32,748 bases of DNA from a virus (IMGVR_UViG_3300037340_000075:1-32748), one strand, 5' to 3'; positions 30-32,355 are shown, counted from the stretch's first letter. The notes: generated by a model not told the origin, from the sequence alone. A program made the numbers and translations.

Positions 30-218
30 ATGTTAAAACGCTGTGAGCATGATTGGATGGATATGTACCATGCTTCAGGTATGGATAAAAAAACTCCTAA
101 GATAGAGATAGTTCGTTTTTTTTGTAAAAAGTGTCTGACTATTAGAAAGAAAACAATAGATATTTCCGACCAACTTTTAATGCCTGATACTAAGGAACTA
201 TATGGAGATTACGAATGA
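30..218 (+). CDS. Small zinc-ribbon-like protein, possibly 5'-truncated
   Basis: A 62-residue basic protein with a C-x-H pair near the N terminus (CEHDW) and a CKKC pair about 25 residues later, followed by RKK. This spacing suggests a small zinc-binding fold; no function is recognised. The frame stays open upstream to the window edge (NDDIPEEDQ before this Met), so the gene may begin outside the window. The GGAAGAAG just before position 30 could serve as a ribosome site for the Met used here. Its stop overlaps the next start as ATGA, so it belongs to the glycosyltransferase operon. Confidence 0.6.
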   Translation: MLKRCEHDWMDMYHASGMDKKTPKIEIVRFFCKKCLTIRKKTIDISDQLLMPDTKELYGDYE

Positions 219-862
219 GTGTCGCTATCCTGACAGCCAATCTAGGTAACTTTGATACGCCTGTTGACCCAGTTAAGCAGGATGTAGTCTCTAGGTTTCA
301 TCGCTGGACTGACGATAATTTTCCGCCGATTACAGGACTTACGCCAAGACTCCAGTACCGTATACCTAAATACTTCGGCTGGCAGATGTTTTCAGGTTAC
401 GACTACTACATCTGGCTGGATGGTACGATGTCGTTTGACGACCCAGCTAGCGTGGCTTGGTACTTAGAACAGCTGGACGAAAAGGATATAGGTTTATTTA
501 AGCATCCTGATAGGCATAGCATCCGCCAAGAGGTTGAGCATATTGAAGAACACTTGCAAAAAGGTAAGCCGTATATTACCAGTCGGTATAAGAACGGCTT
601 ACATCAGGAGCAGTTAGCGGTTATCGAGAAGGACAAGACTTATCGAGATGACAGGCTGTTTGCTTCAACGGCTTTTATCTACCGTAACAATGCTAGGATT
701 CAGAGCATGATGCAGGATTGGTGGTTTTACCAGTCTCGCTACTTTACCTGCGACCAAGTAGTATTGCCTTGGCTGTTGGATGCTTGGGGCGTTAAGTACA
801 AAGTGTTGGAAGAAGAACTTTATAAAACTAAACATCTGGTGAGGGTGAGTACCCATAAATGA
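215..862 (+). CDS. Glycosyltransferase, TOD1/DUF616-like
   Basis: A 215-residue protein that begins like a nucleotide-sugar-dependent transferase (MSVAILTANLG) and carries YDYYIWLDGTMSF at about residues 62-74. This looks like the central motif of the TOD1/MUCI70 (DUF616) glycosyltransferase-like family, where the aspartate binds the metal-sugar-nucleotide. Later segments (GLFKHPDRHSI, the HQEQLA region, and a C-terminal CDQVVLPWLL) fit the same family. It is cytoplasmic, with no signal or membrane segment. It starts by ATGA overlap with the gene before and ends in ATGA overlap with the UDP-arabinopyranose-mutase-like gene. The substrate cannot be read from the sequence. A family match from memory is good; donor and acceptor are unknown. 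Confidence 0.8.
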   Translation: MSVAILTANLGNFDTPVDPVKQDVVSRFHRWTDDNFPPITGLTPRLQYRIPKYFGWQMFSGYDYYIWLDGTMSFDDPASVAWYLEQLDEKDIGLFKHPDRHSIRQEVEHIEEHLQKGKPYITSRYKNGLHQEQLAVIEKDKTYRDDRLFASTAFIYRNNARIQSMMQDWWFYQSRYFTCDQVVLPWLLDAWGVKYKVLEEELYKTKHLVRVSTHK

Positions 863-1737
863 AAAATATAGCTGTTGTGATACCGACAATACGACCTGAG
901 TCCATGAAGAAGTTTAAGGAAGCTTGGTTTGGGTTATTTATTGACCATCAAGTAGAACTAATTATTGTTGAAGATGGCAAAATGCCTACAGTATATGATG
1001 GGTGGAAACTGGATAAAATAAGTTCTGCTCAAATGGTTATGGGGCAATACTCTGAATGTTTAACTAATCTTAATGCTGGTATCCGTAATTTAGGCTTTGC
1101 TTATGTGGCTAGATATCTACCAGAGGTCGAATACATTATTACCCTAGACGATGACGAAGTGCCGATTGGCGACCCAATTCAAGACCATATAGATGCTTTA
1201 AATAAGCGTGTACCGATAAGCTGGCTGTCTACAGCCGTCGATGACTACACTCGTGGTTTCCCTTATGGAGTTCGCGAGGAAGCTGAAGTAGTCTTATCTC
1301 ATGGAGTTTGGGAAGGTGTAGCCGATTGGGATGCACCAACCCAGCTAGTTAAAGGTTCGCATCAGCCAATTGAGTTCTACCGAGGAGCAATTCCAAAAGG
1401 TATCTATTACCCGATGTGTTCCATGAATCTAGCTTTCAAGCGCAAGATGCTACCGTATATCTTCCATGCCCCCTGGGCACTGGGTATCAACCGCTTTGAC
1501 GATATCTTCACTGGCATTACCAGCAAACGAGTTATAGACAAAAAAGGCTGGGCTGCGGTTACGGGCTACGCGCGGGTGCATCATGAGCGCGCCAGCAATA
1601 CTTTTACTAACCTCAAGCATGAAGCGCCAGGCATTGAACTACTGGAGACTTTCTGGAAAGGCGATGAATCGCACCCTTACTTTAAGATTTACAAGGAGAA
1701 GCTGAAAACATGGCAAAAGTTTATAAAGACGACTTAA
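859..1737 (+). CDS. UDP-arabinopyranose mutase-like protein (GT75/RGP family)
   Basis: A 292-residue protein matching the reversibly glycosylated polypeptide/UDP-L-arabinopyranose mutase family. This enzyme interconverts UDP-arabinopyranose and UDP-arabinofuranose. Visible family motifs are, in order: an N-terminal VVIPTIRP strand, the acidic TLDDDEVP (plant DDDC-P) at about residues 95-102, the RGFPYGVREEAE segment that holds the arginine glycosylated in plant enzymes, SHGVWEG, DWDAPTQLVK, PMCSMNLAFKR, and a C-terminal RASNTFTNLKHEAPG. It is shorter than plant RGPs (about 360 residues) but keeps all these blocks. Some bacteria and viruses have family members whose true donor is unproved, so the exact sugar is inferred. 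It overlaps neighbours on both sides inside the sugar operon. Confidence 0.85.
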   Translation: MKNIAVVIPTIRPESMKKFKEAWFGLFIDHQVELIIVEDGKMPTVYDGWKLDKISSAQMVMGQYSECLTNLNAGIRNLGFAYVARYLPEVEYIITLDDDEVPIGDPIQDHIDALNKRVPISWLSTAVDDYTRGFPYGVREEAEVVLSHGVWEGVADWDAPTQLVKGSHQPIEFYRGAIPKGIYYPMCSMNLAFKRKMLPYIFHAPWALGINRFDDIFTGITSKRVIDKKGWAAVTGYARVHHERASNTFTNLKHEAPGIELLETFWKGDESHPYFKIYKEKLKTWQKFIKTT

Positions 1738-2411
1738 CGGTTATCTATCTGACGGCTAATCAGTTGCCTGAAGATTGGACTTATTATCAGCAGAGTATAT
1801 TACTGGAGGCTACCCGTAATTTCCCTATGATAACTGTCTCTCGAAAGCCTTCAAATATGCCAAACGTAATAAGGGATAATGGTGAACGCTCTCATCTCAA
1901 TATGTATAAGCAGATGCTTAGGGCTGCGAAGATAGCTAAGACTCCGTATATAGCTCCAGCCGAAGATGATGTGCTTTATCACTCGACGCACTTTACAGAT
2001 TTTAGACCACCCCTAGATGCTTTTGCTTATGATATGCACCGCTGGCGATTGTTCACTTGGCAGGATGACCCTTGGTATAACTGGACTAATCGGGTAAGTA
2101 ACTGTGCTGGTATTCTGCCTAGAGAGCTATTCATTGAAGCCTGGGAAGAACGACTCGCTAAGTTCCCTGGTGATTCTATGCCAATTCATCGAGTCAGTGA
2201 AGTTGGCAGAAACAACCAAGAAGAATGGATGGGTGTTACCAAGCGCAAGCGGGCTGACTACTTTGGGGAGTTTGCAGTAGTTCATGTTAATCATCTTAGC
2301 GGTACAGATTCAACTGGTACTGAGAAACGGATGGGTCCAATTCGGGCTATAGATATTCCGTACTGGGGCAAAGCTAAGGATATAGTCAGGAAATTCAATG
2401 AAACAGTATGA
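1710..2411 (+). CDS. Putative glycosyltransferase, single-domain paralogue of the next gene's C-terminal half
   Basis: A 233-residue cytoplasmic protein with an acidic PAEDDVLYHSTHF motif at about residues 87-99. The same motif occurs in the C-terminal half of the adjacent 540-residue protein (CEHDVLYHQSHF). Both are followed by an aromatic-rich stretch (MHRWRLFTW here, NQNFWRVRN there) and a Cys-containing SNCAGILPRE/SGLCCYREH segment. A nucleotide-sugar-dependent transferase with ED-D as metal ligand is the likeliest role. The coding start lies 28 nt inside the upstream gene, with AAGGAGAAGC upstream as ribosome site. The end overlaps the next start by 14 nt. The donor is unknown. Confidence 0.7.
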   Translation: MAKVYKDDLTVIYLTANQLPEDWTYYQQSILLEATRNFPMITVSRKPSNMPNVIRDNGERSHLNMYKQMLRAAKIAKTPYIAPAEDDVLYHSTHFTDFRPPLDAFAYDMHRWRLFTWQDDPWYNWTNRVSNCAGILPRELFIEAWEERLAKFPGDSMPIHRVSEVGRNNQEEWMGVTKRKRADYFGEFAVVHVNHLSGTDSTGTEKRMGPIRAIDIPYWGKAKDIVRKFNETV

Positions 2412-4020
2412 TTTGTCAATCCTGATACCAGCCCGCAATGAGATGTTTATATCTAATACTGTTAAAGATATCCTCAAAAACAAGCGTGGTAACACTGAAG
2501 TTATAGTTGGCTTGGATGGACTGTGGGCTGAACCAGGTATCGAAGATCACCCCGATGTTAGGATTGTTTATGTCTCAGAGTCTATCGGGCAACGAGCCAT
2601 GACTAACAAGCTCTGTAAGCTATCTACAGCTAAGTATGTAGCCAAGTGTGATGCTCACTGTGCCTTTGACGAGGGCTTTGATGAGAAACTGCTGAAAGCT
2701 ATTGAGGGACACGATGACTGGACAGTTACACCTGCTTTGAAGAATCTATGGGCGTTTGACTGGAAATGCCCGAAATGCGGTAGCCGTTGGTTTCAAGGAC
2801 CAACACCAACTCAATGTATGGTTCACACCGACCCAGCTAAGAATAGCTCACCACTTAAACCGAATCCGGTTTGTGATAATACAGAAGGTTTTACTCGGCG
2901 GATGGTTTGGCAACCGAACCCCAAACGTCCCACTAGTCGGTCTTTCCGCTTTGATAAAACTATGCACTTTCAATACTGGCGGGAGTTTAACAAGCGTCCT
3001 GAAGGTCAGGGCGAAGTTACGCCCAGTCTGAGTTTGCAGGGTTCATTCTTTATGATGACCCGTAAGAAGTATATAGAACTGGATATCTGCGATGAGAAGC
3101 ATGGCAGCTGGGGTCAGCAAGGTACTGAGGTAGCTTGTAAGACGTGGCTATCCGGCGGACAGGTAATGTGCGTACAGGGTACTTGGTATGCTCATATGTT
3201 CAGGACTCAAGGACTGGACTTTGGCTTTCCTTATCCGAATAGTGGTATGGCTCAGGAAGTAGCTCGGCAGTATTCTAGGCATCTGTGGCTGGACAATACT
3301 TGGGATAAGGCTATCTATCCGTTGGAGTGGCTGCTGGCTAAGTTCGCGCCAGTTCCTGATTGGCATACTGAGGCAACTAAAGGCATTATCTATTACACTG
3401 ACAGCCGATTAGACTCTGGTATAGCCGAGCCAGTCCGCAAACAGCTTAAAACCGCTGGGCTGCCGATTGTTTCAGCTTCACTCAAGCCTCTGGATTTTGG
3501 CAAGAATATTCATTTAGACTTAGAACGCGGTACGCTGACTTACTTTAAACAGATAGTGGCTGCTTTGGAAGCCAGTACGGCAGATATTGTGTTCTTCTGC
3601 GAGCATGATGTTTTGTATCACCAGAGCCATTTTGACTTCACGCCAATTGATAAGGATATGTTCTATTATAATCAGAACTTTTGGCGGGTGCGTAATGATG
3701 GCTTTGCGGTTCACTGGAACGCTAATCAAGTCTCTGGATTGTGTTGTTACCGAGAACATGCTCTGGCTTATTACAAGGCTCGACTGGCAGTTGTAGAGGC
3801 TGGCGAGTTTGACCGCAGTTATGAGCCTGGTGGCAGAGACAAGACTAAATATAAAGTCTGGAAGTCAGCTTTTCCTAATATAGATATTCGCCATGATGGA
3901 ACTTTAACTAAAAGCAAATGGTCATTAGCTGATTTTCGGGACAAGTCTACGGCGCAAGGTTGGCAAGAGAGTACAATAGAGAAGATTCCTGGCTGGGATA
4001 ATCTGGAAAGGATTATATGA
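2398..4020 (+). CDS. Two-domain glycosyltransferase; N-terminal half polypeptide-GalNAc-transferase-like (GT2/GT27 type)
   Basis: A 540-residue protein. Residues 1-300 are a GT-A fold transferase. They start with LSILIPARNE, then EVIVGLDG, and then CDAHCAF at about residues 81-87. That motif has the D-x-H-C signature typical of animal polypeptide GalNAc-transferases rather than the usual DxD. Further on, a GSFFMMTRKKYIELD...WGQQGTE...CGG-like (LSGGQVMCVQG)...HMFR block resembles the GT27 acceptor-side block (GG-FAI-R--F--LG...WGGEN-E...CGG...GH-FR). A CPKCG Cys insertion near residue 122 looks zinc-binding. Residues ~315-540 form a second domain paralogous to the preceding gene (CEHDVLYHQSHF). 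A peptide acceptor, possibly the Ser-rich protein downstream, is inferred from these motifs. The start overlaps the upstream gene and the end overlaps the dehydrogenase gene by ATGA. Confidence 0.8.
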   Translation: MKQYDLSILIPARNEMFISNTVKDILKNKRGNTEVIVGLDGLWAEPGIEDHPDVRIVYVSESIGQRAMTNKLCKLSTAKYVAKCDAHCAFDEGFDEKLLKAIEGHDDWTVTPALKNLWAFDWKCPKCGSRWFQGPTPTQCMVHTDPAKNSSPLKPNPVCDNTEGFTRRMVWQPNPKRPTSRSFRFDKTMHFQYWREFNKRPEGQGEVTPSLSLQGSFFMMTRKKYIELDICDEKHGSWGQQGTEVACKTWLSGGQVMCVQGTWYAHMFRTQGLDFGFPYPNSGMAQEVARQYSRHLWLDNTWDKAIYPLEWLLAKFAPVPDWHTEATKGIIYYTDSRLDSGIAEPVRKQLKTAGLPIVSASLKPLDFGKNIHLDLERGTLTYFKQIVAALEASTADIVFFCEHDVLYHQSHFDFTPIDKDMFYYNQNFWRVRNDGFAVHWNANQVSGLCCYREHALAYYKARLAVVEAGEFDRSYEPGGRDKTKYKVWKSAFPNIDIRHDGTLTKSKWSLADFRDKSTAQGWQESTIEKIPGWDNLERII

Positions 4021-4814
4021 ACGAACTAACTGGAGTAATTGGCGAAGGCTGGGTAGGCAAGTCGATGATAGAGCTGTTTCCAGAAGCTATTATTTATGAT
4101 GAGCCAGCTTTAAAAGAAAGAGCTTTAAATCCTGACGCAGCTATTCGAGCTGGCAGGGCGGCTATAAGGGCTTGTGATGTCTCGTTTATTTGCGTGCCAA
4201 CGCCGAATCATGATAAAGGCGAGTTAGATACTTCAATAGTTGAAGAAGTTGTAGACTGGTGTGATTCTGATTTAATAGTTATCCGCTCGACAGTTAATCC
4301 TGGAACAGTAGATAGGCTGACAGCTCAGACTGGCAAGCATATAGTCATGCAACCTGAGTATCTCGGTGAAACGCCTCAACACCCTATGCTTGACCCGAAC
4401 ACTCGACAGTTCATGGTGATTGGCGGTGAGCCGAAAGACAGGCGCAAGCTTATTGATTTATATACAACAGTCTATAGTGCCAATATTGGTATCCGTCAGG
4501 TTTCAGCTTTAGAGGCTGAAGTCATTAAATTGTCTGAAAACCGAGCTATTGCTTTCAAGGTCGCTCAAGCTCAGGAACTTTATGATGTTTGCCAAGCAGC
4601 TGGCATAGACTACTACACGATTCGTGATGCAGTCTATGGTGATGACCCGCGATTTAATATGTGGTGGACGTTCATCTACCCTGACAAACGGGGCTTTAAT
4701 TCCAAGTGTATCCCTAAAGATGTTTATGCTTGGGCAGCATGGGCGGAGAGTCTGGGTTACGACCCAGAACTGACAAATGATTTATTGAGAGTTAATGAAA
4801 AGCTAATTAAGTAG
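4017..4814 (+). CDS. UDP-glucose/GDP-mannose 6-dehydrogenase-like protein, short form
   Basis: A 265-residue NAD-dependent nucleotide-sugar dehydrogenase. The Rossmann motif is GVIGEGWVGKS at residues 6-16. FICVPTPNHDKGELD matches the family VPTP---D-G--D block. VIRSTVNPGT and MQPEYLGE follow. The central helix EVIKLSENRAIAFKVAQAQE keeps the catalytic Lys and Asn. GFNSKCIPKD aligns with the family GFGGSCFPKD, so the catalytic Cys is present although the glycines are changed. The usual C-terminal UDP-binding domain is absent (full enzymes are about 400-450 residues). The expected product is UDP-glucuronate (or another UDP/GDP-uronate), a precursor of UDP-xylose and UDP-arabinose, which would fit the neighbouring arabinose mutase. 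It is the last gene of the sugar operon. Confidence 0.85.
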   Translation: MNELTGVIGEGWVGKSMIELFPEAIIYDEPALKERALNPDAAIRAGRAAIRACDVSFICVPTPNHDKGELDTSIVEEVVDWCDSDLIVIRSTVNPGTVDRLTAQTGKHIVMQPEYLGETPQHPMLDPNTRQFMVIGGEPKDRRKLIDLYTTVYSANIGIRQVSALEAEVIKLSENRAIAFKVAQAQELYDVCQAAGIDYYTIRDAVYGDDPRFNMWWTFIYPDKRGFNSKCIPKDVYAWAAWAESLGYDPELTNDLLRVNEKLIK

Positions 4815-4820
4815 TACAAT
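4792..4820 (+). promoter_or_regulatory. Putative leaderless promoter (-10 TACAAT)
   Basis: TACAAT at 4815-4820 lies exactly 6 nt before the ATG at 4827, with a weak TTAATG 17 nt upstream. No Shine-Dalgarno sequence fits in the gap. This is the spacing of actinobacterial leaderless transcripts (TANNNT, 6-7 nt, start codon). It would uncouple the virion proteins from the sugar operon. Confidence 0.5.
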
Positions 4821-4826
4821 TAGCTT

Positions 4827-5633
4827 ATGGCATTTGATGCTCACAAAAACTTTGGTTACTCGACTGTTTTAACTGCCCCTAGTCCTGCTACTAGTGGTAC
4901 ATCTTTGGTGGTTCAATCAGGCGATGGAGCTAAATTTCCAGTTACGCCTTTTAATGCTACTGTCTTTCCTGTAGGCGTTCAACCAACTACCTCAAACTCT
5001 GAGATAGTTCGGGTTACTACTGTTTCAACTGATACTCTTACGATTGTTCGAGGAGCAACGTCTGGCGGTGGGTTGAACGGAGAGCCCAATAACCAAAACC
5101 GCTCAATAATAATTGGTGACCAGATAGAAGCTGGTATTTCAGCCAGAAGTTTAACCGATATAGAGTCAGGCGGTCTATTAACTTCCAGTGCCTTGGCTAC
5201 TAACGCTGTAGCAGCAGCTAATCTAGCTACTACTGCTATCACTCTAGGCTACGCACAGATTACCTCAAACTTTACTACCTCAAACTCTACAGCTACACAA
5301 GTTACTAGTCTTACACTAAGCGTTACAATTCCTGCTGGCGGTAGATATATAAAGATAACTGCATTTAGTACGACAGTTTCTAACACCACATCGGTTCACA
5401 CTACCGTTGTAACTATTTGGGACGGTACAGTTGGCAGTGGAACGCAACTATCGGAGTCTGCTATATCGGTGGGCTCGAATAACGCAAATTATCCAATAAC
5501 AACTATCGCAGTCGTCCAGCCAGCCGCCGGTAGCAAAACCTATAATGTAGGATTAAATACTGACGGTTCTGGTACTGGCACATATGGGGCTGCCGCTACC
5601 TATCCAGCCTTTTTATTAGTAGAGTGCATATAG
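4827..5633 (+). CDS. Virion/tail-fibre-like protein
   Basis: A 268-residue secreted-like but signal-less protein rich in Ser, Thr and Gly, typical of phage fibres. Residues ~15-110 contain the phage structural motif SGTSLVVQSGDGAKFP...PFNATVFP...SEIVRVTTVSTDTLTIVRG...RSIIIGDQI, common at the start of actinophage minor tail or fibre proteins. The C-terminal ~130 residues, beginning LGYAQITS and ending TDGSGTG...YPAFLLV, resemble the C-terminal domain of the protein at 19830-20807, so this is a shared fibre or head domain. It sits between the sugar operon and the Ser-rich protein, separated from the latter by only 8 nt. The function is inferred as virion decoration or receptor contact. Confidence 0.7.
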   Translation: MAFDAHKNFGYSTVLTAPSPATSGTSLVVQSGDGAKFPVTPFNATVFPVGVQPTTSNSEIVRVTTVSTDTLTIVRGATSGGGLNGEPNNQNRSIIIGDQIEAGISARSLTDIESGGLLTSSALATNAVAAANLATTAITLGYAQITSNFTTSNSTATQVTSLTLSVTIPAGGRYIKITAFSTTVSNTTSVHTTVVTIWDGTVGSGTQLSESAISVGSNNANYPITTIAVVQPAAGSKTYNVGLNTDGSGTGTYGAAATYPAFLLVECI

Positions 5634-5641
5634 GAGTCTAA

Positions 5642-8413
5642 ATGTTTGGCGCTAACTACTTTGCCAAAGTCTATTTTGGACAAGGTTATTATCCTGGTAT
5701 TCAATTTGACGCTAAATCTAACTCTGGGTATCAGGCAGCTTCATCGGATTATACTTGGACTCATGTTACTGGAGTTGGCGCTAGTCAAGTTTTAATTGTT
5801 AGTGTTGGGCTTCTTAGTGTAGCTAATAGTGTTACAAGTGTTACATATAATGGGACTAACCTAACTAAAGTTCGCTCAGATGTTAGTGCTTCAACGACTG
5901 TAAGAACTGAGATTTGGTATTTGGATGCTCCGACTCAAGGCTCACATACAGTTGAAGTAAAGCTTACTACTGCATCTGTGAGTGGAGCGGTTGCTTCTTC
6001 ATATAATAACGTAGATCAAGTAACTACTATTGATGCTCAGAATGGCGGTACGGCTGTTACTGGCGCTGGAGGCGGTTCAAGCTCCATCAATGCTACTACG
6101 TTGGCGAATGGAGATTATGCCGTAGACGCTATAGCGACTCCTGATACTTCAATAAATGCAGCCAATCCTCCTCAAACCGAAACAGGGAATATAACTGGCG
6201 CTGTAGGTAGTGTTGGACAATCTTTACAGGTTCCTAATGTTATCGGTGGAGTAGCAGTAACAATGGCATGGAATAATATTGCTGCCGTAACTACTTGGAC
6301 AGCAAGTATGGTACTGTTGCGCCCTGTTGGAGTAGACACGAGTAGCCCGAGCGCCAGTCGAAGTCCTTCTGCCTCTGTTAGCCCAAGCTCATCAGTTTCC
6401 AGCAGCCAAAGTCCATCAGCTAGTCGAAGTCCTTCTGCCTCTGTTAGCCCAAGCTCATCAGTTTCCAGCAGCCAAAGTCCATCAGCTAGTCGAAGTCCTT
6501 CTGCTTCGCTTAGCCCGTCTAGCTCATCTAGTTCTTCACAAAGCCCAAGTGCTTCGGTTTCACCTTCTGCTAGTTTAAGCCCAAGTTCTTCGGCTTCTAG
6601 CAGTCAGAGTCCCAGTGCCAGCTTGAGTCCTAGTTCGAGTATTTCTTCATCTGTTAGTCCTAGTGCTTCACAGAGCCCATCAGCCAGCATTTCGCCTTCG
6701 TCAAGCATTAGCTCAAGTGTCAGCCCTTCAGCCTCATTGAGCCCAAGTTCATCAGCCTCTAGTAGTGAGAGCCCGAGTTCTAGTTTATCTCCTTCTGCCA
6801 GTGTTAGCCCTTCACCTTCTATTAGTCCAAGTTCATCTTATAGCCCGAGCGCTAGTTATTCACCTAGCGCTAGTGTGTCTCCAAGTAGTAGCTTATCACC
6901 AAGTTCAAGTCCAAGTCCGTCGGCTGGAGGGGTTTCGCCCTCAGCCAGCCAGAGTCCGTCAGCTTCTTTAAGTCCTTCGGTATCATTGAGTCCTAGTTCG
7001 AGTATAAGTTCATCTATCTCACCGTCTGCTTCACAGAGCCCAAGTTCATCAATATCTTCAAGTATCTCACCTTCGGCAAGCTTATCTCCAAGCGCCAGTG
7101 TCAGTCCTTCTAGCTCGAGTAGTTCTAGTAAAAGTCCAAGTGCTTCACTAAGCCCTAGCTCGAGTATATCTTCCTCAGTTAGTCCATCTGCTTCTTTAAG
7201 CCCGTCATCATCAATTAGTTCGTCAGTCTCTCCAAGCGCCTCTTTATCTCCGAGTAGTTCGTCATCATCTTCTGAGTCTCCATCAGCTAGCTTGAGTCCT
7301 AGTTCTTCGATTAGTTCGAGTATAAGTCCGAGTGCCAGTATGTCTCCAAGTAGCTCAATCTCGTCTAGTATCAGTCCTAGCGCTAGTTTAAGCCCGAGTT
7401 CAAGTATTAGTTCGTCAATCAGCCCAAGTGCTTCATTGAGTCCGAGTAGTTCGATTTCTTCTAGCATTTCACCTTCAGCCAGTCTATCTCCCAGTTCTAG
7501 TATTTCTTCTTCGATTTCGCCTTCAGCTTCGCTTAGTCCCAGTGCATCACTCAGCCCAAGTAGCTCAATATCTTCTAGTATTAGCCCGAGTGCTTCTATT
7601 AGTCCAAGTAGTTCTGCTTCAAGCAGTCAAAGCCCTAGTGCCAGCTTAAGTCCTTCAGCTTCGGTCAGTCCATCGGCATCTGTTAGCCCGAGTAGTTCGC
7701 AATCTCCAAGTACAAGCTTAAGTCCGTCAGCTAGTGTTAGCCCGAGCTCATCAGTTTCCAGTAGTTACAGTCCAAGTGCTTCTATATCTCCATCAGCTAG
7801 CTTGAGCCCAAGCACATCATCATCGCCAAGTCTTTCACCGTCAGCCAGTACTTCACCAAGTTCTAGTGAAAGCCCGAGTGCTAGTATGAGCCCTTCTGCT
7901 TCGCGTTCGCCGAGTTCGAGTGCCAGTGCGTCACAGAGCCCGAGTGCCAGTTATAGCCCGTCAGCTAGTGTTAGCCCGAGTGCCAGTCGAAGTCCATCAG
8001 CTTCAGTTAGTCCGAGTTCGAGTGCCAGCTCATCTTATTCACCAAGTGCCTCTCTTAGCCCCAGCGCCTCGCGTTCGCCGAGTAGTAGTGCTTCAGCTTC
8101 AGGTAGCCCCAGCGCCTCTGTTAGCCCAAGTGCTAGCTACAGCCCTTCATCATCTGTATCGTCCTCAATCTCACCTTCGGCTTCTGTAAGTCCAAGCGCT
8201 TCCCAGAGTCCGTCAGCTAGTTACAGCCCCAGCGCCTCTGTTAGCCCAAGTAGTTCAGTTTCTAGTAGTGTTAGCCCATCAGCCAGTATCTCACCCTCCA
8301 GTTCGCCATCGCCAAGTCTGGCAGTTGAGCCGATAGAAGGACAGCCAACTAACACTCCTAAAATGATACTGCGTATAGACAATGGGCTTGATGTAGTAGA
8401 CTTATATTATTAG
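5642..8413 (+). CDS. Giant Ser/Pro/Ala-repeat (mucin-like) virion surface protein
   Basis: A 923-residue protein. Residues ~15-230 form a predicted beta-sandwich domain ([10 protein letters not shown]...[12 protein letters not shown]...[18 protein letters not shown]), a type common in phage and environmental bacterial surface proteins. Residues ~234-893 are almost entirely SPSASx hexads, with x being R, V, L, Q, I, Y, E, K, M, G or T, broken by SSSx tetrads. The last ~30 residues are non-repetitive ([16 protein letters not shown]). There is no signal peptide, LPXTG anchor or membrane helix, so it is a virion rather than a cell-wall protein. The AGGAG at 5632-5636 sets the start. The density of Ser and Pro is what O-glycosylated stalks look like, and the glycosyltransferase operon lies just upstream. 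Glycosylation itself is inferred. A fibre or head-fibre stalk is the alternative to a decoy coat. Confidence 0.75.
6341..8320 (+). repeat. Ser-Pro-Ser-Ala-Ser coding repeat array
   Basis: About 1980 bp encode ~660 residues of SPSASx/SPSSSx hexads with SSSx tetrads between. The protein repeat is very regular, but Ser is written with a mixture of AGT, AGC, TCT, TCA, TCG and TCC, so neighbouring units seldom match at DNA level. Long antisense open frames inside it (for example 6856-7467 on the minus strand) are by-products of this composition. Confidence 0.95.
6356..6487 (+). repeat. Perfect 66-bp tandem duplication within the Ser array
   Basis: The 66-bp unit at 6356-6421 is repeated without a change at 6422-6487, and a third partial copy starts at 6488 before diverging at the Ser codons. 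Each unit encodes 22 residues (three hexads plus one tetrad). This marks a recent expansion at the N-terminal edge of the array. Confidence 0.9.
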
Positions 8414-8415
8414 AT

Positions 8416-9921
8416 ATGGAATACGAATTATTTGAAAAACAAGATGCTTTCGTTTTTGATGACCATAGATTTGGTGGTTATGGCGGTGGGTTCGGTAACG
8501 GTAAGACTCTAGCCGGAGCGATTAAAACTTATAACCATTGCATGCAGAAAGATGCCTTTTTCCTGATTGGTCGTCGCCATGCTACTGATTTATCTGATTC
8601 TACCCAGCGAGACTTTCTTAATCTTTTCGGGCAGATGGGCAAGTTTTCACCTAAAAACGGTTCGTTTAAGTTCTATAAAGACGGTGTGCAGTTCTCGGAA
8701 GTGATCTTCCGTCATTTAGACGATTTGCAGTCTTTAACCAACATGAACTTATCTGGTTTCTGGATTGACCAAGCCGAGGAAGTTTCTGAGGAAGTTTTTG
8801 ACTTTTTGGTAGGGCGTATTCGCCGTCCGGTACACAGGCGCGAGGGCTTTATTACCTATAACCCGAACGGGCATGACTGGATATGGCGACGTTTCTTAAA
8901 GAAGATCGGCAAAGACGGTAAGGTTTTACCTAATGCCAGTGATTTCTTCGCAGTTACAGCTTCGACCTTAGAGAATAGGCAGAACTTACCGGAAGATTAC
9001 GTTAAGGGTCTATTGTCTATGCCGAAAGAGTGGGTCAAGCGTTTCGTGGAAGGTTCGCATGATGTTTTCGCCGGACAGATATTTGATGAGTTTAATCCGC
9101 ATCTTCACGTTTTACCGCAACCGTTTCAGATTCCTAATACTTGGGAACGTTTTAGAATGATAGATCATGGTCAGAATAACCCGACAGCTTGCTTATGGGG
9201 AGCTGTAGACTTTGACGGCAATATTTTTATCTACCAAGAGTATTATCGAGAGAAAGATGTGGTTTCGCACCACGTCAAGCTTATAAATGAGATGAGTAAA
9301 ATCCGAACCACAACCGGTGATACCCTGCTTGACACTTATGCTTATACGGTTATCGACCCCTCGACTCATGCTAAAACACTAGAGAAAGACGGTTATCGGT
9401 TCAGTGTGGCTGATGAATATGCTGATGCTGGGATTAACACTATTGCTGCCCAGAATGATGTCATTGCTGGTATTAACCGAGTTAAAGAATATCTGACTAT
9501 CAATCCAACACGCTTTCATGCTTTCTTGCGCGACCCTGACGGTGAACCTTTGATGGGTGCGCCTCGCCTGTATATCTTTCCGCAATGCGAGAATCTAATT
9601 GAGGAGATTGGACAGTATAAGTGGAAAGCTTATAGTGGCATGCAACTTGGTAATCCAGATCGGGATGAGATTAAAGAAGCGCCAGTTAAGCGTAAAGACC
9701 ATGCTGTAGATGCTTTGCGTTACGGCATTATGTCCAGACCGCAGTCGCCGTTTCATGCTGCTCAAACTGAACCTTGGGTTTTCCAGCACCCTATTGAGTT
9801 AGCCCGTCGAGCTGCAAAGTTAGGTATGACACCAGATGAATTTCGGGAAGGACGCTTTAGCCGAACTTCAATCCGACATAGTGAGTCTGGTATTAAACAC
9901 AGTGAAGGTTTGAAGAAATAG
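8416..9921 (+). CDS. terL: Terminase large subunit
   Basis: A 501-residue DNA-packaging motor. The N-terminal ATPase shows Walker A GGFGNGKT at about residues 25-32 and Walker B LSGFWIDQAEEV at about 113-124, followed by the coupling-type FITYNPNGHDWIW segment. The C-terminal RNase H-like nuclease starts at MIDHGQNNPTA (first Asp), continues with VIDPSTHAKT (second acidic residue) and ends with the RKDHAVDALRYG block that carries the last metal ligand. The length is normal for the family. It starts 2 nt after the Ser-rich gene stop and has no strong ribosome site of its own, so it may be translationally coupled. No small terminase was recognised next to it. Confidence 0.93.
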   Translation: MEYELFEKQDAFVFDDHRFGGYGGGFGNGKTLAGAIKTYNHCMQKDAFFLIGRRHATDLSDSTQRDFLNLFGQMGKFSPKNGSFKFYKDGVQFSEVIFRHLDDLQSLTNMNLSGFWIDQAEEVSEEVFDFLVGRIRRPVHRREGFITYNPNGHDWIWRRFLKKIGKDGKVLPNASDFFAVTASTLENRQNLPEDYVKGLLSMPKEWVKRFVEGSHDVFAGQIFDEFNPHLHVLPQPFQIPNTWERFRMIDHGQNNPTACLWGAVDFDGNIFIYQEYYREKDVVSHHVKLINEMSKIRTTTGDTLLDTYAYTVIDPSTHAKTLEKDGYRFSVADEYADAGINTIAAQNDVIAGINRVKEYLTINPTRFHAFLRDPDGEPLMGAPRLYIFPQCENLIEEIGQYKWKAYSGMQLGNPDRDEIKEAPVKRKDHAVDALRYGIMSRPQSPFHAAQTEPWVFQHPIELARRAAKLGMTPDEFREGRFSRTSIRHSESGIKHSEGLKK

Positions 9922-21572: not shown

Positions 21573-24500
21573 ATGGGTATAATTAACCTTGACAATGCTG
21601 ACGAAAACGCCACTAATGCTTTAAATAAATCATTATCATATCAAGCTTCTTTAAGAACTCAACAAGCCCAGCAACCTAAAGAAGCACCACCACCGCCAGC
21701 CGGTCCGACAGATTTCAAGGGCAGAATAGCTAAAGTCGGTGTTGGCGAGGTAATGAAAGCTAAATTAGCTGTTCAGATGGAAGTTGCTGCTCGTACGCAT
21801 AATACTCAAGCTTTCAAGAACGCTAATCAGAAGAATCAGCAAAATAACGCTAGTCAGGTCAATACTGAGAACCAGCTTAAAACTCAGGGCAATCCAGTAG
21901 AGAAAACCGTAGCTAAAGTTGGTCAGGGAATTGTTCACGCTGGCGAGAATCCTGGGCAGACTGTACAATCTGTTGCTAAAACAGTAGCCCAACCTTTTAA
22001 TGCTTTAGCTCATACAGGTGAAACTATAGCCACGTCGCCTTTTCGGGATAAGATGGCTCAAGATGTAGCTACTGCTGCTAATAATGCCTCTACTGCACTT
22101 AACAGTGCTTATCATTCAGGTAAGATTTCTCTAGAGGAATATAACCAAAAGATGAAAACACTTGGTCAAGTTTATGATGCGTCAGATAAAATAACCAAGT
22201 CTAATCTTTCTGATCTTAAAGAGTATGGCAACCCAGTAAAAGCTGCTGCTAATGCTGTCCAAGTTGGCAGTTACTTCTTGGGTGCAGGTGAAACAGCAGA
22301 CATATTTAAGGGTCTAAGTCCTCTAGTTAAAGGCATATTCCAGAACGCCTTTATTGGGGTAGTTGGTAATGAGGCTCAGTATGTTGCTACCAGCAATAAG
22401 ATTACTAAAGGTGGTGCAGAGAAGTCTGGACTTGAAGGTGGAGCTTTTGGAGTTGGCGCTGCTCTTGTCGGCGGTGTGGCTGGCAAGTTCGCTCAGGGCG
22501 CTAAAGCTTATCTAGGTAAATCTGACCAAGCTACTAAAGACGTAGCTACTAATGTTAAAACAAACGCCCTTATAAACAGTGCCAAGTCAACCAAAGCTAA
22601 TGTTGGAGATATAGCGGTTAATAAGACAGCTAAAGATGCTAATGCTACCGAGAAAGTTGGTCAGGCTGCCGTCTTTAAGACTAAAGGTGATTCCGAAGCT
22701 GCTCAGACGGCTGCTGCTAATGCTGCACCCAAGAATAAACTGCTAGGTACTGGTGGTACACAAGCTGAAGGCAAAGGCTTTACCATGAGCGCTACTACTG
22801 ATGCAGCCAAAGCTAAGGTTAGCGGACAATTGCAAAAGATTAATCAGCAACTTAGCGATCATGCTACAGGCAAAAAGGCTTTATATCCCGATCAGGTTAA
22901 ATCTCTGGTTCAGCAAAAGAGCGATTTACTCGACCAAGCTAACGGCAAAGTACCTGATTCTCCAACTATGAAAGGTGATGCAGCTACCCAGAAGTTCAAT
23001 AGCTTAGAAGCTAGTTACCACAATGAATCAGCTAATGCTAGTCGCCTACCTAAAGACCAGCAAGCTGCTGCGGTCAGTGCCGTTAATGCTAAACATGACC
23101 AAGCTCTAAGTGATCTAAAGAAACAGTATTCTCAGTCAGCAGCAGTTACTCCTAAAGAAAATCCCAGTTTATCTCAAAAGGTTTCGCGCCCTCCGTCAGA
23201 CAAGTCACCTCAAACGACTGGCGGAGGCGCACTTAAGAATACTAATAAACCGCCAGCTAAAGGTTTGGGCGGTTTAGTAAATAAGGCAGCCAGCAAGTTA
23301 CATGTCTCTGGTAAGGTTAATCCCGAACAGGATTTATTAAACAAAGGACATACTGATGCAGCTCAAGTAGTCAGGGATATATCTGCTAATCGAGACTTAG
23401 GCAATTACCGAGGCGAACGCGCCCAAGCTATTTTTGACAAAAACGCTGCTGGGGATGAACAAAACTACACTACGTTTGCTTCTCAGCATGAAGCTAGTCC
23501 AAATGCTTCAGTCGCTCATCAGCATTTTACTTCAACCTTGCAGGATACGGGTCAACGCGGTGTTAAGGCTGGAGCTTTAAGTAGCGCTAGGGGCGATACT
23601 TATGTTCCTCGTTATGCTAAATTTCAAGATACCACCAAATCTGCCAGTATTGGCGGTCTACAGAAAACTGGAGGCTTCAGCAAGGGTCGTGTTCAGGCTG
23701 GTGAGTTTGGACTAGCTGGCGACAAATACAAGACTTATGCCGAGTTTAAGGCATCAGTCGAAAATAACGGTGGTAAAACCTCCAATGCTACTACTGGACA
23801 GGTGCTTGGACATACTGTTGCTTCTCGTGAGAAAGCTATCGCTAATGCTGACGGATTAGCTAAACTGGAAAAAACTTCTATGGCAGACGGCAAGCCAGCT
23901 ATTGCTACTTACGACCAGTCTAAAGGCTTGCCAGCTAAATTGTCTGGCTATGACATTAATCTGTTACCAGGTCGAGCCGTACATCCTGATTTAGCCCCAG
24001 CTATTAAGTCTTTTGTCCAAAACCCTAAAGCTAATTTACTGACTAAAGCTAATGCTATTACTAAGCGTTTAGTAACCTTAAACGGTACGGTTCACGACCT
24101 AAACTACGCCCGATCAGCTATGGGTGAACAAGGTTTAGCCCGAACAGTTAAAGGTTTCCATCCTATAAATATAGTTCAAAAAGGTATAGATAGCCCAGCT
24201 TATCATGCCGACACTGAGCGCATGATTAAAAATGGTATGGTAACTAGCCGAACTGGGCTTACTAACATCTTTGACGAATCCAACAGTGTGCTTAACCAGA
24301 AAGTTACTGGCGCTCTGGGTAAAACCAGAGGGGCTATGGACAGAGTTACCTTTGGCATAGGAGATAACTTAGGACGGTCTACTTATCTTAAAGTTGAAAA
24401 ACAGCTTACTGGTAAAATAGGGGCGCACGATGCTGGTCAGCAAGCTGCCGATATTGCTAACCGAGTAATGTTTACAGAGCGCGAGGGACAGCAATCTGCC

Positions 24501-25664
24501 GAGGCTAAATCAGTCGGTAAAGTAGCTTTGTTTGCTAAGAATTACTTCCAAAGCACTATTCAGAAGGCTACTACAGCACTGGGCATCAGCAAGAACACAG
24601 CCCTATCTAGTGCAGCTCAACGAGCTGGACAAGTTCAGGCTGCTAAAGCCTTGGCTAAAAGCTTTACTTATCTATTTGCAGCAGCTCAGGCAATCAACTA
24701 CCACGCTACCGGACACTCGACGTTCTCTAATCAAGGTTCTAAACTTAGCCCAATATTTTACACCGATAAAACTACTGGCAAGTCCTACCATATTACTAAC
24801 TGGTTTGGGCAAGTCGGTGAATTACTTAATATAGGTGAGCTAAAACCGTCATCAGTTACTAACAAATTATCGCCAGCTATTCAGGAAGCCAGTCGGTTGC
24901 TTCAGGGCTTTACCTCTGGCGCTCCTGACCCTTACACCGGACAGACTGTTATCAATAACAAAGCCAGTGGTCCGCGTCAAGCTGGAGAAGCTGCTGCGAA
25001 CATTCTTAATAACCTGATAACCCCAGCTGGAGTTAATACTTCACAGCTAAACCAAAAGTTTGGTAAAGGCGGTCAACCAGGCAAAGTAACTGGCGCTCAG
25101 TTCTTTGGCTTTGGAACTTCTACCGCCGAACAGAATCCAATGGCGCAAGATATTGCTAATCGTTACTATGCCACTCTGCCAGCTAATGCTGGGGCTAATA
25201 AGAGCCAGCAGTTATCTACTCTAGAAGCAGCCGCCCGAAATGATATAGCGCATGGTAATAAGAACAGCGCTAATGTTCAATCTGTCCAGAAACAGTTATC
25301 GCCAGCCGCTTTCACTAAGTTTCAAAAAGGTGCAGCTAATAGTCAGGTTCAGTCTAACTTCGACAATCTCCCAACTGCCGATAAACTACAGATTGTCCAG
25401 AAATACTCAGCAGCCCAGATTAAATCTGAAGGCTTGGACTTAACCAGTCTAGGCAAAGCTCTAGTCGGCAGTAGCCAGAAGGCAGTTATTCAAGGCTTGG
25501 AAGCTAAAGGTTATAGCCCTAATCAGATTAGTTCACTGCTTCAGAAAGTCGGCATCGGTTCTCAGCAGTTGCAGCAGTTCAAAGCCCAAGCTAAAGCTCA
25601 AGCTAGTGCAACAGCTAGAAAAAGTCGAGCTGAGCCTAAGTTTGTAAATCCGTTATTAAAGTAA
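21573..25664 (+). CDS. Large internal virion / DNA-ejection protein
   Basis: A 1363-residue protein, the largest in the window. The N-terminal ~120 residues are Gln/Ala-rich with a KEAPPPPAGP linker. Residues ~220-310 include hydrophobic Gly-rich segments (VGSYFLGAGETADIF, GGAFGVGAALVGGVAGKFA) that could insert into a membrane. Residues ~340-600 are Lys/Ala/Gln-rich and disordered. Residues ~800-1060 look like the large polyvalent/internal-core type helical domain (YARSAMGEQGLARTVKGF...ANRVMFTEREGQQSAEAKS...FAKNYFQSTIQ). The C terminus is helical and basic. I see no lysozyme or protease motif. Role inferred from size, position and composition: packaged in the head and ejected with DNA. Confidence 0.7.
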   Translation: MGIINLDNADENATNALNKSLSYQASLRTQQAQQPKEAPPPPAGPTDFKGRIAKVGVGEVMKAKLAVQMEVAARTHNTQAFKNANQKNQQNNASQVNTENQLKTQGNPVEKTVAKVGQGIVHAGENPGQTVQSVAKTVAQPFNALAHTGETIATSPFRDKMAQDVATAANNASTALNSAYHSGKISLEEYNQKMKTLGQVYDASDKITKSNLSDLKEYGNPVKAAANAVQVGSYFLGAGETADIFKGLSPLVKGIFQNAFIGVVGNEAQYVATSNKITKGGAEKSGLEGGAFGVGAALVGGVAGKFAQGAKAYLGKSDQATKDVATNVKTNALINSAKSTKANVGDIAVNKTAKDANATEKVGQAAVFKTKGDSEAAQTAAANAAPKNKLLGTGGTQAEGKGFTMSATTDAAKAKVSGQLQKINQQLSDHATGKKALYPDQVKSLVQQKSDLLDQANGKVPDSPTMKGDAATQKFNSLEASYHNESANASRLPKDQQAAAVSAVNAKHDQALSDLKKQYSQSAAVTPKENPSLSQKVSRPPSDKSPQTTGGGALKNTNKPPAKGLGGLVNKAASKLHVSGKVNPEQDLLNKGHTDAAQVVRDISANRDLGNYRGERAQAIFDKNAAGDEQNYTTFASQHEASPNASVAHQHFTSTLQDTGQRGVKAGALSSARGDTYVPRYAKFQDTTKSASIGGLQKTGGFSKGRVQAGEFGLAGDKYKTYAEFKASVENNGGKTSNATTGQVLGHTVASREKAIANADGLAKLEKTSMADGKPAIATYDQSKGLPAKLSGYDINLLPGRAVHPDLAPAIKSFVQNPKANLLTKANAITKRLVTLNGTVHDLNYARSAMGEQGLARTVKGFHPINIVQKGIDSPAYHADTERMIKNGMVTSRTGLTNIFDESNSVLNQKVTGALGKTRGAMDRVTFGIGDNLGRSTYLKVEKQLTGKIGAHDAGQQAADIANRVMFTEREGQQSAEAKSVGKVALFAKNYFQSTIQKATTALGISKNTALSSAAQRAGQVQAAKALAKSFTYLFAAAQAINYHATGHSTFSNQGSKLSPIFYTDKTTGKSYHITNWFGQVGELLNIGELKPSSVTNKLSPAIQEASRLLQGFTSGAPDPYTGQTVINNKASGPRQAGEAAANILNNLITPAGVNTSQLNQKFGKGGQPGKVTGAQFFGFGTSTAEQNPMAQDIANRYYATLPANAGANKSQQLSTLEAAARNDIAHGNKNSANVQSVQKQLSPAAFTKFQKGAANSQVQSNFDNLPTADKLQIVQKYSAAQIKSEGLDLTSLGKALVGSSQKAVIQGLEAKGYSPNQISSLLQKVGIGSQQLQQFKAQAKAQASATARKSRAEPKFVNPLLK

Positions 25665-28114: not shown

Positions 28115-28224
28115 CACGCTCCAACTTTGACAAACGAATTACTTGGGTAGTTGAAATACCAGCTAAAGCATTGGAGTGTATTGTAACTGTAATAAAACAT
28201 GCTTTCAGGAAACAAGATGACTGA
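28111..28224 (+). CDS. 37-residue hypothetical microprotein
   Basis: AAAGGAG at 28094-28100 lies about 10 nt before the ATG. The product begins MTRSNFDKRITWVVEIPAKA and continues as an amphipathic helix (LECIVTVIKHAFRK). The end overlaps the WhiB start by a few bases. Unknown function. Confidence 0.5.
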   Translation: MTRSNFDKRITWVVEIPAKALECIVTVIKHAFRKQDD

Positions 28225-28564
28225 CTTTCTAGGCGATTTACCAACTCGAAGCTGGCGTGGAGCCTGTGACGGTATGTCACCAGACGTATTTTTCGTAGAC
28301 GGCAAAGAACACGAAGCTAATCTAGCTCGTAAAGCTGCTCAAGCTGTCTGTAAAACTGAGTGTGAGTACAGGGTAGAGTGTTTAGACGAAGGTTTTATGT
28401 ACCATGAACGTTACGGGATTCGTGGAGGGCTTTGTGAACGCCAGCTAAGAATAGCTAATCACTTACATTTGCGTGAAGTTGCAACCGAAACAATTATAGA
28501 AATGGCAGATAATGGAACAGCCCCCTTTGGTAGAGCAGGGAGACCTGCTAGACGTAGTGTTTGA
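28217..28564 (+). CDS. whiB: WhiB-like iron-sulfur transcription regulator
   Basis: A 115-residue member of the actinobacteria- and actinophage-restricted WhiB family, which binds a 4Fe-4S cluster and sigma-A. The N-terminal WRGACDGMSPDVFF holds the first Cys and the aromatic signature. AVCKTECEYRVEC holds the other three, spaced C-x3-C-x5-C rather than the usual C-x2-C-x5-C. The sigma-binding G-V/I-W-G-G turn is GIRGG here, with Arg for Trp. The C terminus is RAGRPARRSV, an AT-hook-like GRP-R tail. Start 28217 is preferred to 28199 because AGGA at 28207-28210 serves it. It could redirect or block host transcription, as reported for the mycobacteriophage TM4 WhiB. It is strong evidence for an actinobacterial host. 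Confidence 0.9.
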   Translation: MTDFLGDLPTRSWRGACDGMSPDVFFVDGKEHEANLARKAAQAVCKTECEYRVECLDEGFMYHERYGIRGGLCERQLRIANHLHLREVATETIIEMADNGTAPFGRAGRPARRSV

Positions 28565-30951: not shown

Positions 30952-30973
30952 TTATTTAATCCTTTTCTTTGGG
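30952..30973 (-). repeat. 22-bp direct repeat, copy 1 (gene end plus ribosome site)
   Basis: Identical to 31726-31747. On the minus strand it carries codons for PKKRIK, the stop, and the AAAAGGA ribosome site of the following gene. Confidence 0.9.
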
Positions 30974-31725
30974 TTGGCTTCTTTAAGCAGTTCAAGTAGT
31001 TTGTCGGCCATTACTGACCAGATTTTATGTCCTTTAGTTCTATAAGCATGAGCATAAGCAGCATCAGCAGCAGCAGCAGCAGCAGCATGAGCATGAGCAG
31101 CAGCAGCAGCATGAGCAGCAGCAGCAGCATGAGCATGAGCATCAGCAGCATAAGCAGCAGCATGAGCAGCAGCAGCAGCAGCAGCAGCATGAGCAGCAGC
31201 AGCAGCAGCAGCATGAGCATGAGCATCATGAGCAGCATTAGCAGCAGCATAAGCATAAGTAGTAGCAAACTTAGACTTTGGTACATCTTTACCGTCTATC
31301 ACTTCCTGATAGAGCTTAACTACTTTAGTAATAGCTTTTTTGCCATCTGGTCTAGCGTACTGCCAGACCCCATACTTTTTATCTTTAAGCAACCAGACTA
31401 CAAACTTAGGCCAGACTAGCGATAAGTCTGCACCAACTTCAATAGCCTCTAAAAACTTTAAGGGAAACTGTTTAGCTTCGCCGTTGCTCAATCCCTCAAA
31501 TATTCTATCCTCTAGCCTAGCGATAATTCTGGGTATGCCAAGCTCGGTTTCATACTTAACGTGGTCTGAACCCTCAATCGTGCAGCCAACAGCACAACCC
31601 TTACCATTTTGCCAATAGATGCCGTGAACTATCTCATCAGCTTTATAGTGAGCCTTAACTCGCTTTACATACTTATTCTTGACTGAAATCTTATCTTTGT
31701 ACGCTAACATTTTAACCTCGCTCAT
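30952..31725 (-). CDS. Phage protein with Ala/His repeat tract
   Basis: A 257-residue protein. Residues 1-155 form a folded domain (LAYKDKISVKNKYVKRVKAHYKADE...GKGCAVGCTIEGSDHVKYETELGIP), a type I recall only as uncharacterised phage or metagenomic proteins. Residues 157-228 are a run of Ala interrupted by His, Tyr, Asp and Asn. The last ~30 residues are helical (KIWSVMADKLLELLKEA) and end NPKKRIK. The tract would form a long helix and its His could bind metal. The ending is shared with the pentapeptide-repeat protein upstream. Confidence 0.75.
   Translation of the reverse strand: MSEVKMLAYKDKISVKNKYVKRVKAHYKADEIVHGIYWQNGKGCAVGCTIEGSDHVKYETELGIPRIIARLEDRIFEGLSNGEAKQFPLKFLEAIEVGADLSLVWPKFVVWLLKDKKYGVWQYARPDGKKAITKVVKLYQEVIDGKDVPKSKFATTYAYAAANAAHDAHAHAAAAAAAHAAAAAAAAHAAAYAADAHAHAAAAAHAAAAAHAHAAAAAAADAAYAHAYRTKGHKIWSVMADKLLELLKEANPKKRIK
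31042..31257 (-). repeat. Triplet-repeat tract encoding Ala/His
   Basis: About 72 codons, all ending in T: mostly GCT (Ala), interrupted by CAT, TAT, GAT and one AAT. It is a microsatellite-like, in-frame triplet array. Confidence 0.9.
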
Positions 31726-31747
31726 TTATTTAATCCTTTTCTTTGGG
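31726..31747 (-). repeat. 22-bp direct repeat, copy 2 (gene end plus ribosome site)
   Basis: Perfect copy of 30952-30973, at the end of the pentapeptide-repeat gene and directly before the ATG of the Ala/His protein. Confidence 0.9.
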
Positions 31748-32355
31748 AAGATAGTTTTTCCATTCCAAGGGCATTTAGGACACTCTTTTTTATGTAGGGC
31801 GTTCCACCCCTTATCAGTAGTAGGTATTTCACCAAGAACAGGAGCTAAGAGTTTAAGTCTAAGCTTTACTTCGTCTTTGGGCTTCTCTTTTTTAATGTAG
31901 TTGATTCTAGCTCTGAGGGGCTCGGTTAGTTGTTCTACTAATATTTCGTGGTGTAAGTGCCACCAGAAGTCTGTTTTGTCGCTGTCTAAGTTCTTGGCAC
32001 CATACAAGTCGGCACCACGCAAGTTGGCACCATACAAGTTGGCACCACACAAGTTGGCATCACGCAAGTCGGCACCACGCAAGTTGGCACCACACAAGTT
32101 GGCATCACGCAAGTCGGCATCATACAAGTTGGCATCACGCAAGTCGGCATCACGCAAGTCGGCATCATACAAGTTGGCACCACCCAAGTCGGCACCACCC
32201 AAGTTGGCACCACGCAAGTTGGCACCATACAAGTAGGCATCACACCCTACTGCTTTAACTAATGTTTTCTTAACCGTATTATCTTTACAGGCATACTTAA
32301 ACAGCACAGTACCTGTCCATGACTTAATCTCGATTGTTATTTCTTTACTTACCAT
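31726..32355 (-). CDS. Pentapeptide-repeat protein
   Basis: A 209-residue protein. Residues 1-38 are a small N-terminal region (ITIEIKSWTGTVLFKYACKD). Residues ~40-120 are about 16 A(N/D)LxG/D pentapeptide repeats, forming a right-handed beta-helix. Residues ~125-175 are a helical domain (DFWWHLHHEILVEQLTEPL...). A CPKC pair lies near the end, followed by FPKKRIK. Some pentapeptide proteins (Qnr, MfpA) mimic DNA and inhibit gyrase, but nothing here shows that role. AGGAGG upstream sets the start. It is TAATG-coupled to the upstream gene. Confidence 0.85.
   Translation of the reverse strand: MVSKEITIEIKSWTGTVLFKYACKDNTVKKTLVKAVGCDAYLYGANLRGANLGGADLGGANLYDADLRDADLRDANLYDADLRDANLCGANLRGADLRDANLCGANLYGANLRGADLYGAKNLDSDKTDFWWHLHHEILVEQLTEPLRARINYIKKEKPKDEVKLRLKLLAPVLGEIPTTDKGWNALHKKECPKCPWNGKTIFPKKRIK
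31996..32235 (-). repeat. 16 x 15-bp pentapeptide-coding repeat
   Basis: Sixteen consecutive 15-bp units with eleven invariant positions. All differences fall at four positions and all change the amino acid (Asn/Asp, Gly/Asp, and Arg/Tyr/Cys/Gly). There are no spacers, so it is not a CRISPR array. Confidence 0.95.

Follow-up and report, generated by a model that had tools for sequence, protein, structure and literature searches.

Serine-rich repeat proteins (SRRPs) of Gram-positive bacteria are, according to the available accounts, glycosylated in the cytoplasm before they are exported (PMC7948813, PMC5578698). The accounts available for mycobacteriophages likewise describe phage-encoded enzymes that glycosylate virions (Freeman 2023, via PMC12363180, PMC12619734). 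Here, we analysed IMGVR_UViG_3300037340_000075:1-32748, the 32.7-kb record of an uncultured virus (called the window below, at its full length of 32,748 nucleotides), in which five sugar-enzyme genes stand close to the gene of a long alternating-serine repeat protein. Our results suggest, with a probability that we put at about three in four, that these genes form a mobile protein O-glycosylation module for serine-repeat fibres that is common to Patescibacteria and their phages.

The locus shares with SRRPs such as GspB, Fap1 and PsrP the very long alternating (S-x)n tracts and the glycosyltransferase cluster beside the acceptor gene, and the cellular version described below is also near a translocon gene. 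It differs in the enzyme that would initiate glycosylation, which is GALNT-like here and GtfA/GtfB in SRRP systems; Pfam assigned no GT4 family, the GtfA/GtfB type, to any of the window's five sugar proteins, the left flank of the cluster being unseen. The nearby translocon is that of twin-arginine translocation (Tat), whereas SRRP systems have SecA2/SecY2, at which no search was aimed. The start of the repeat protein shows no obvious signal peptide, inspection of both its termini found neither an LPXTG anchor nor a specialised signal peptide, and the system is found in Patescibacteria and their phages. In mycobacteriophages Che8, Corndog and Myrna, transferases of the phage act on virion proteins, as we propose here, but the targets there are capsid and tail-tube proteins, and the available accounts describe no dedicated repeat protein. 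Two of the five proteins belong to the Pfam families of plant RGP/UDP-arabinopyranose mutase and TOD1/MUCI70, although here they are phage proteins encoded in one operon with a GALNT-like enzyme. The features of the window are as follows.

215-862, + strand: TOD1/MUCI70-like putative glycosyltransferase (GT_A), 215 residues; PF04765, 5.7e-7
859-1737, + strand: reversibly glycosylated polypeptide (RGP) / UDP-arabinopyranose mutase-like protein, 292 residues; PF03214, 3.1e-36
1710-2411, + strand: divergent glycosyltransferase of predicted GT-A fold (GT_C), 233 residues; no Pfam family over cut-off
2398-4020, + strand: two-domain glycosyltransferase (GT2 enzyme), 540 residues; PF00535, 6.6e-10
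4017-4814, + strand: short UDP-glucose 6-dehydrogenase-like protein, 265 residues; PF00984, 1.2e-15, and PF03721, 5.2e-12
4827-5633, + strand: tail-fibre-like protein, 268 residues; phrog_8469 tail fibre, 1.1e-7
5642-8413, + strand: alternating-serine repeat protein, 923 residues, proposed glycan acceptor; from the sequence
6344-8311, + strand: (Ser-x)n repeat tract within it, SPSASx / SPSSSxSSSx units, 90 counted
8416-9921, + strand: terminase large subunit; PF04466, 4.3e-15, and phrog_2, 8.6e-33
28199-28564, + strand: WhiB-like protein, host indicator; PF02467, 7.1e-11

Each of the five sugar genes overlaps the next, as the first-pass annotation of this DNA had it, and Pfam assigns sugar-enzyme families to four of them (for scale, PF03214 scored 125.7 bits against a cut-off of 23.8). 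The same annotation spoke of a glycosyltransferase operon directly upstream of the repeat gene. The sugar genes and their proximity are there, but two of the five, the mutase and the dehydrogenase, are nucleotide-sugar enzymes and not transferases, and the tail-fibre-like gene intervenes between block and repeat. The tail-fibre-like gene follows the sugar block within 12 bp, the repeat gene follows within 8 bp and the terminase start within another 2 bp, and because of these overlaps and short gaps the genes from 215 up to and including the terminase look like one operon. The window also encodes a P22/SU10-like portal and further late genes.

A scan with the 540-residue enzyme alone recovered 45 viral loci, or 40 after removal of near-duplicates, and an alternating-serine open reading frame (ORF) was present in the fetched stretch, within 10 kb, in 29 of the 40; in 19 of those 29 it lay within 200 bp of a transferase. 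A second, paralogous GT2 was found in 33 of the 40 loci, and homologues of GT_A adjoined the GT2 enzyme in six. No serine ORF occurred in the 27 controls, relatives found by their terminase that lack the enzyme (Fisher p=5e-10, with phylogenetic dependence among the loci of each set). Many of these metagenomic contigs are cut short, which makes absences weak evidence. Among close relatives, L002/G001, with a terminase 81% identical to that of the window, has the block GT_A-RGP-GT_C-GT2 with repeat ORFs on both its sides, while L003/G002 (terminase also 81%), G006 and G007 have neither enzymes nor repeats over nearly the whole record, and G002 has two small genes only directly upstream of its terminase. 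Close relatives of the window thus carry both enzyme and repeat or neither.

The reverse search, from serine tracts, gave 25 records in which 100 or more residues alternate; the GALNT-like enzyme family is present in 17 of them and another GT2 in three more. The tract criterion and the two DNA pattern scans behind it sample repeat proteins and do not enumerate them: the first degenerate pattern lacked specificity, as the majority of the 120 stretches that it matched had no in-frame serine tract, and most stretches from an AGY-only pattern, meant as more specific, likewise held no tract by the criterion. L210, with a SRSPSR tract, and similar stretches were classed as a different type of repeat and left out. 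Co-occurrence, adjacency and joint presence or absence support the view that the sugar enzymes and the serine-repeat protein behave as one module. Repeats without transferases in related phages, or the reverse, had been named beforehand as the pattern that would speak against such a pairing, and the counts of 29/40 and 0/27 favour the module. The claim that no described phage has the combination stands for described phages, since no INPHARED isolate encodes the main enzyme or its paralogue and our search of the literature on phage or Patescibacteria serine-rich glycosylation found no account of the enzyme/serine-repeat pairing; the combination is nevertheless common in uncultured phages and in Patescibacteria.

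By sequence and predicted structure, the N-terminal domain of the 540-residue enzyme is closest to the polypeptide GalNAc-transferases (GalNAc, N-acetylgalactosamine). A profile built from 32 homologues has its best PDB matches in GALNT1 and relatives (1e-11), and the AlphaFold model (pLDDT 91.8) superposes on every listed GALNT with Z of 22-26.4 and a root-mean-square deviation of 2.4-3.1 over about 250-269 residues, against a Z of at most 19.2 for the other listed glycosyltransferases. D40, D85, H87, W238-G239 and H266 are invariant in the 32 sequences. As in the metazoan and apicomplexan enzymes of family GT27, there is a GT-A fold with DxH, WG....E....W..GG and H-x-FR motifs; aligned to GALNT1, the DxH metal motif falls on D85 and H87 and the catalytic-loop histidine on H266, which we take to correspond to H359 of GALNT2. 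Unlike GT27 enzymes, this prokaryotic and viral family has a Cys-rich insert, and in place of the C-terminal ricin-type lectin domain (Pfam finds no lectin family in the 540-residue enzyme) residues 326-540 form a second GT-A-like, transferase-like domain related to the neighbouring GT_C. In some relatives each domain has a gene of its own. The GALNT-like motifs recorded in the first-pass annotation are thus borne out by both the profile match and the fold, whereas its term "mucin-type" is not established in the chemical sense, given the replaced WGGEN glutamate treated below and neighbouring genes that point to other sugars.

It could be argued that the transferases modify the host envelope polysaccharide, in superinfection exclusion, or the phage DNA, and that the serine-repeat gene just happens to lie beside them in a variable fibre region. 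The available accounts describe phage transferases that act on host serotype or on phage DNA (PMC12619734), the sugar genes could build a polysaccharide, and polysaccharide synthases are among the fold neighbours. We consider this unlikely, since serine tracts accompany the enzymes in loci with different terminases, 19 times within 200 bp, and are missing from close relatives that lack the enzymes; moreover, the closest fold is that of peptide-acting GALNTs, and the overlapping genes stand in an apparent operon that ends in fibre and terminase genes.

The proposed acceptor is extreme in composition. Its Ser/Pro tract, residues 235-890 of the ORF at 5642-8413, measures 656 residues with 388 serines and 95 prolines, which agrees with the roughly 660 residues of SPSASx repeats reported earlier, and alternates (S-x) without interruption over 194 and 458 residues, on either side of one short break. 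Identical peptide units share 61% nucleotide identity, where 60% is expected from independently drawn synonymous codons, so the repeat does not stem from recent DNA slippage; because codon choice among identical units is about as free as chance, the pattern is kept by selection on amino acids. A search with the whole protein confirmed no relative, probably an effect of low-complexity filtering, which removes such a query. Between the window and L002, a match of only about 29 C-terminal residues was found for the repeat proteins, while the enzymes are 47-65% identical; heads at other loci include LamG and glycine-rich domains. Repeat-protein heads change, therefore, while serine tract and enzymes stay. 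The tail-fibre-like neighbour is 61% identical over its N-terminal 108 residues to the annotated tail fibre MW202566, and since its N-domain of about 115 residues (4827-5180) recurs as 51-65% identical stretches in cellular loci (L336, L351-L353 and L355), fibre heads are also shared between phages and cells.

The companion genes point, as far as their sequences tell, to chemistry of UDP-glucuronic acid (UDP-GlcA) and UDP-arabinose. The RGP-like protein has UDP-arabinopyranose mutase 8cid as its best PDB match (2e-13), with the DDD and RGxPxxxRE regions aligned, which together with PF03214 over cut-off places 859-1737 in this mutase family; it is 75% identical to a protein of the Saccharimonadales locus L328. 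The dehydrogenase-like protein (phrog_9148, 5.1e-29) has no C-terminal domain and keeps a catalytic-type cysteine in FNSKCIPKD. GT_A has a 57% identical homologue at the syntenic position in phage record G001. The AlphaFold model of GT_C (pLDDT 88) finds mostly GT-A enzymes as its best structural matches, with Z up to 13.3, and the protein carries a conserved AEDDVLYH motif and matches the C-domains of GT2-enzyme homologues by tblastn; its alignment held no stretch conserved enough for a scan of the collection.

The module is not confined to viruses. A collection of 84,980 species genomes yielded 43 cellular loci with the enzyme, nearly all of Patescibacteria, and 27 of these have serine-tract ORFs. 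TatC lies within 11 of the 43 (range L328-L370), with about 0.8 expected, and within none of the viral loci; TatA also lies in L328. Fourteen of 16 enzyme-positive genomes (G033-G045 among them) have one copy of TatC, and in 11 of the 16 this gene shares its contig with the enzyme, at a distance of about 6-16 kb; in a twelfth, G045, the contig with TatC carries other transferases of the cluster. By comparison, no more than 13 genomes in a phylum sample of 145 had TatC above the cut-off (Fisher p about 2e-12 against the enzyme-positive genomes).

These loci bear on two further explanations. One holds that the transferases glycosylate virion proteins generally, for instance the capsid, and that the serine tract is an unmodified flexible stalk. 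Glycosylation of this kind is established for mycobacteriophages in the available accounts (Freeman 2023, via PMC12363180, PMC12619734), but here the enzyme family tracks serine tracts and not capsid lineages, and its cellular homologues pair with serine-tract proteins in genomes mostly without a phrog_2 terminase, which makes this explanation very improbable. The other holds that all the Patescibacteria loci are misbinned or integrated phage contigs, the system being purely viral and the Tat link incidental. The enzyme is indeed uncommon in the phylum (4 of 287 sampled genomes), tail-fibre-like domains occur in the cellular loci, and in G142 a terminase lies about 14 kb from the enzyme; G142 is the only such case and has no TatC, as expected of a phage contig. 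However, TatC and, in L328, TatA are inside the loci, some loci sit in contigs of 240-917 kb, and the phrog_2 terminase is present in only 2 of the 16 enzyme-positive genomes, once as a weak match on a different contig. A purely viral system is therefore quite unlikely.

A conserved membrane protein of about 210 residues was also seen in about nine cellular loci (L339:6273-6908, L362:1818-2423 and homologues in L331, L340, L341, L349, L357, L358 and L366). The members in L339 and L362 have a DRR-x-FLK twin-arginine motif, and the C-terminal domain matches viral loci L037 and L038 too. This protein might serve as anchor or carrier.

In the tree of N-domains, the enzymes of the window and L002 group with those of two Saccharibacteria (support 97/99), and the tree needs at least nine well-supported switches between viral and cellular labels. 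Phage and cell branches are intermixed, and phages and Patescibacteria appear to have exchanged the module repeatedly. WhiB is usually thought of as actinobacterial, and an actinobacterial host was considered for the window on account of its WhiB-like protein and a resuscitation-factor-like transglycosylase; it was set aside because the order to which the genome of L328 belongs has WhiB as well, in 52 of 100 genomes. The nesting of the enzyme, the 75% identical mutase and WhiB in that order make the tiny Saccharibacteria the likely host, and the window phage probably infects them.

Several observations weigh against a module that glycosylates serine-repeat fibres. Eleven of the 40 enzyme loci, several of them truncated, have no repeat ORF, and some repeat-bearing records, mostly fragments, have no enzyme of the GALNT-like family; among longer records, the GT2s of L262 (84 kb) and L326 (45 kb) all fall outside this family, and a weak GT2 is all that L319 (190 kb) has. 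In human enzymes, E334 of the WGGEN motif contacts GalNAc; the window has WGQQG instead, and the position is variable across the family. With this glutamate replaced and a Cys-rich insert in the enzyme, GalNAc cannot be named as the sugar. The cellular repeat proteins show neither a twin-arginine signal that could be recognised nor an obvious signal peptide, which leaves their export by Tat unexplained. Lastly, the repeat protein is placed in the virion by its neighbour genes, and the host is assigned by homology.

We propose that the 540-residue enzyme recognises the alternating-serine tract in the cytoplasm, where its GALNT-like N-domain would most likely attach the first sugar to many of the serines. 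Extension of the glycan may then fall to the C-domain of the same enzyme, to GT_C and to the TOD1/MUCI70-like enzyme, with donors such as UDP-GlcA and UDP-arabinose made or converted by the dehydrogenase and the mutase-like protein; the window shows none of the steps that lie between UDP-GlcA and UDP-arabinopyranose, which the host would supply. The product would be a stiff, sugar-covered fibre stalk built into a podovirus-like virion. In Patescibacteria, the module would make surface glycoproteins, whose exit is probably helped by the adjacent Tat translocon, while phages, which carry no Tat, would need no export because lysis releases the virion.

Other features were observed in passing. Record G023 (L262) encodes a long serine-tract protein together with several GT2s that are not GALNT-like, possibly an alternative set of enzymes for this type of acceptor. 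In the window, the transglycosylase-like protein (resuscitation-factor type, PF06737; 29210-29794, - strand) has an N-terminal hydrophobic segment and is possibly related to lysis. The ORF at 30952-31725 (- strand) codes for a low-complexity protein with a long Ala/His repeat tract (HAAAAAAHAHAA...; repeats at 31045-31255), and a pentapeptide-repeat protein at 31726-32355 (- strand) bears a 15-bp tandem repeat array. In the late region, a 1363-residue protein without a Pfam match (21573-25664) is possibly an ejection or internal virion protein.

Taken further, the locus may belong to an undescribed prokaryotic system of O-glycosylation and display, with a GALNT-like initiator and a Tat translocon that may be dedicated to it, from which phages take up, or to which they donate, the module that dresses their fibres in the glycans of their episymbiont hosts; we regard this broader proposal as an even bet. 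If true, it would provide a defined candidate pathway for surface glycoproteins in Patescibacteria, about whose way of attaching to host cells little is understood, and would offer a reason for the presence of Tat in the few members of the group that have it. GALNT-like peptide glycosyltransferases would then be placed in bacteria and phages, and a second, independently built serine-repeat glycoprotein system would stand beside the Gram-positive one. The enzymes may also serve for making artificial mucins. For the biology of these viruses, it would mean that phages share the glycoprotein machinery of their hosts.

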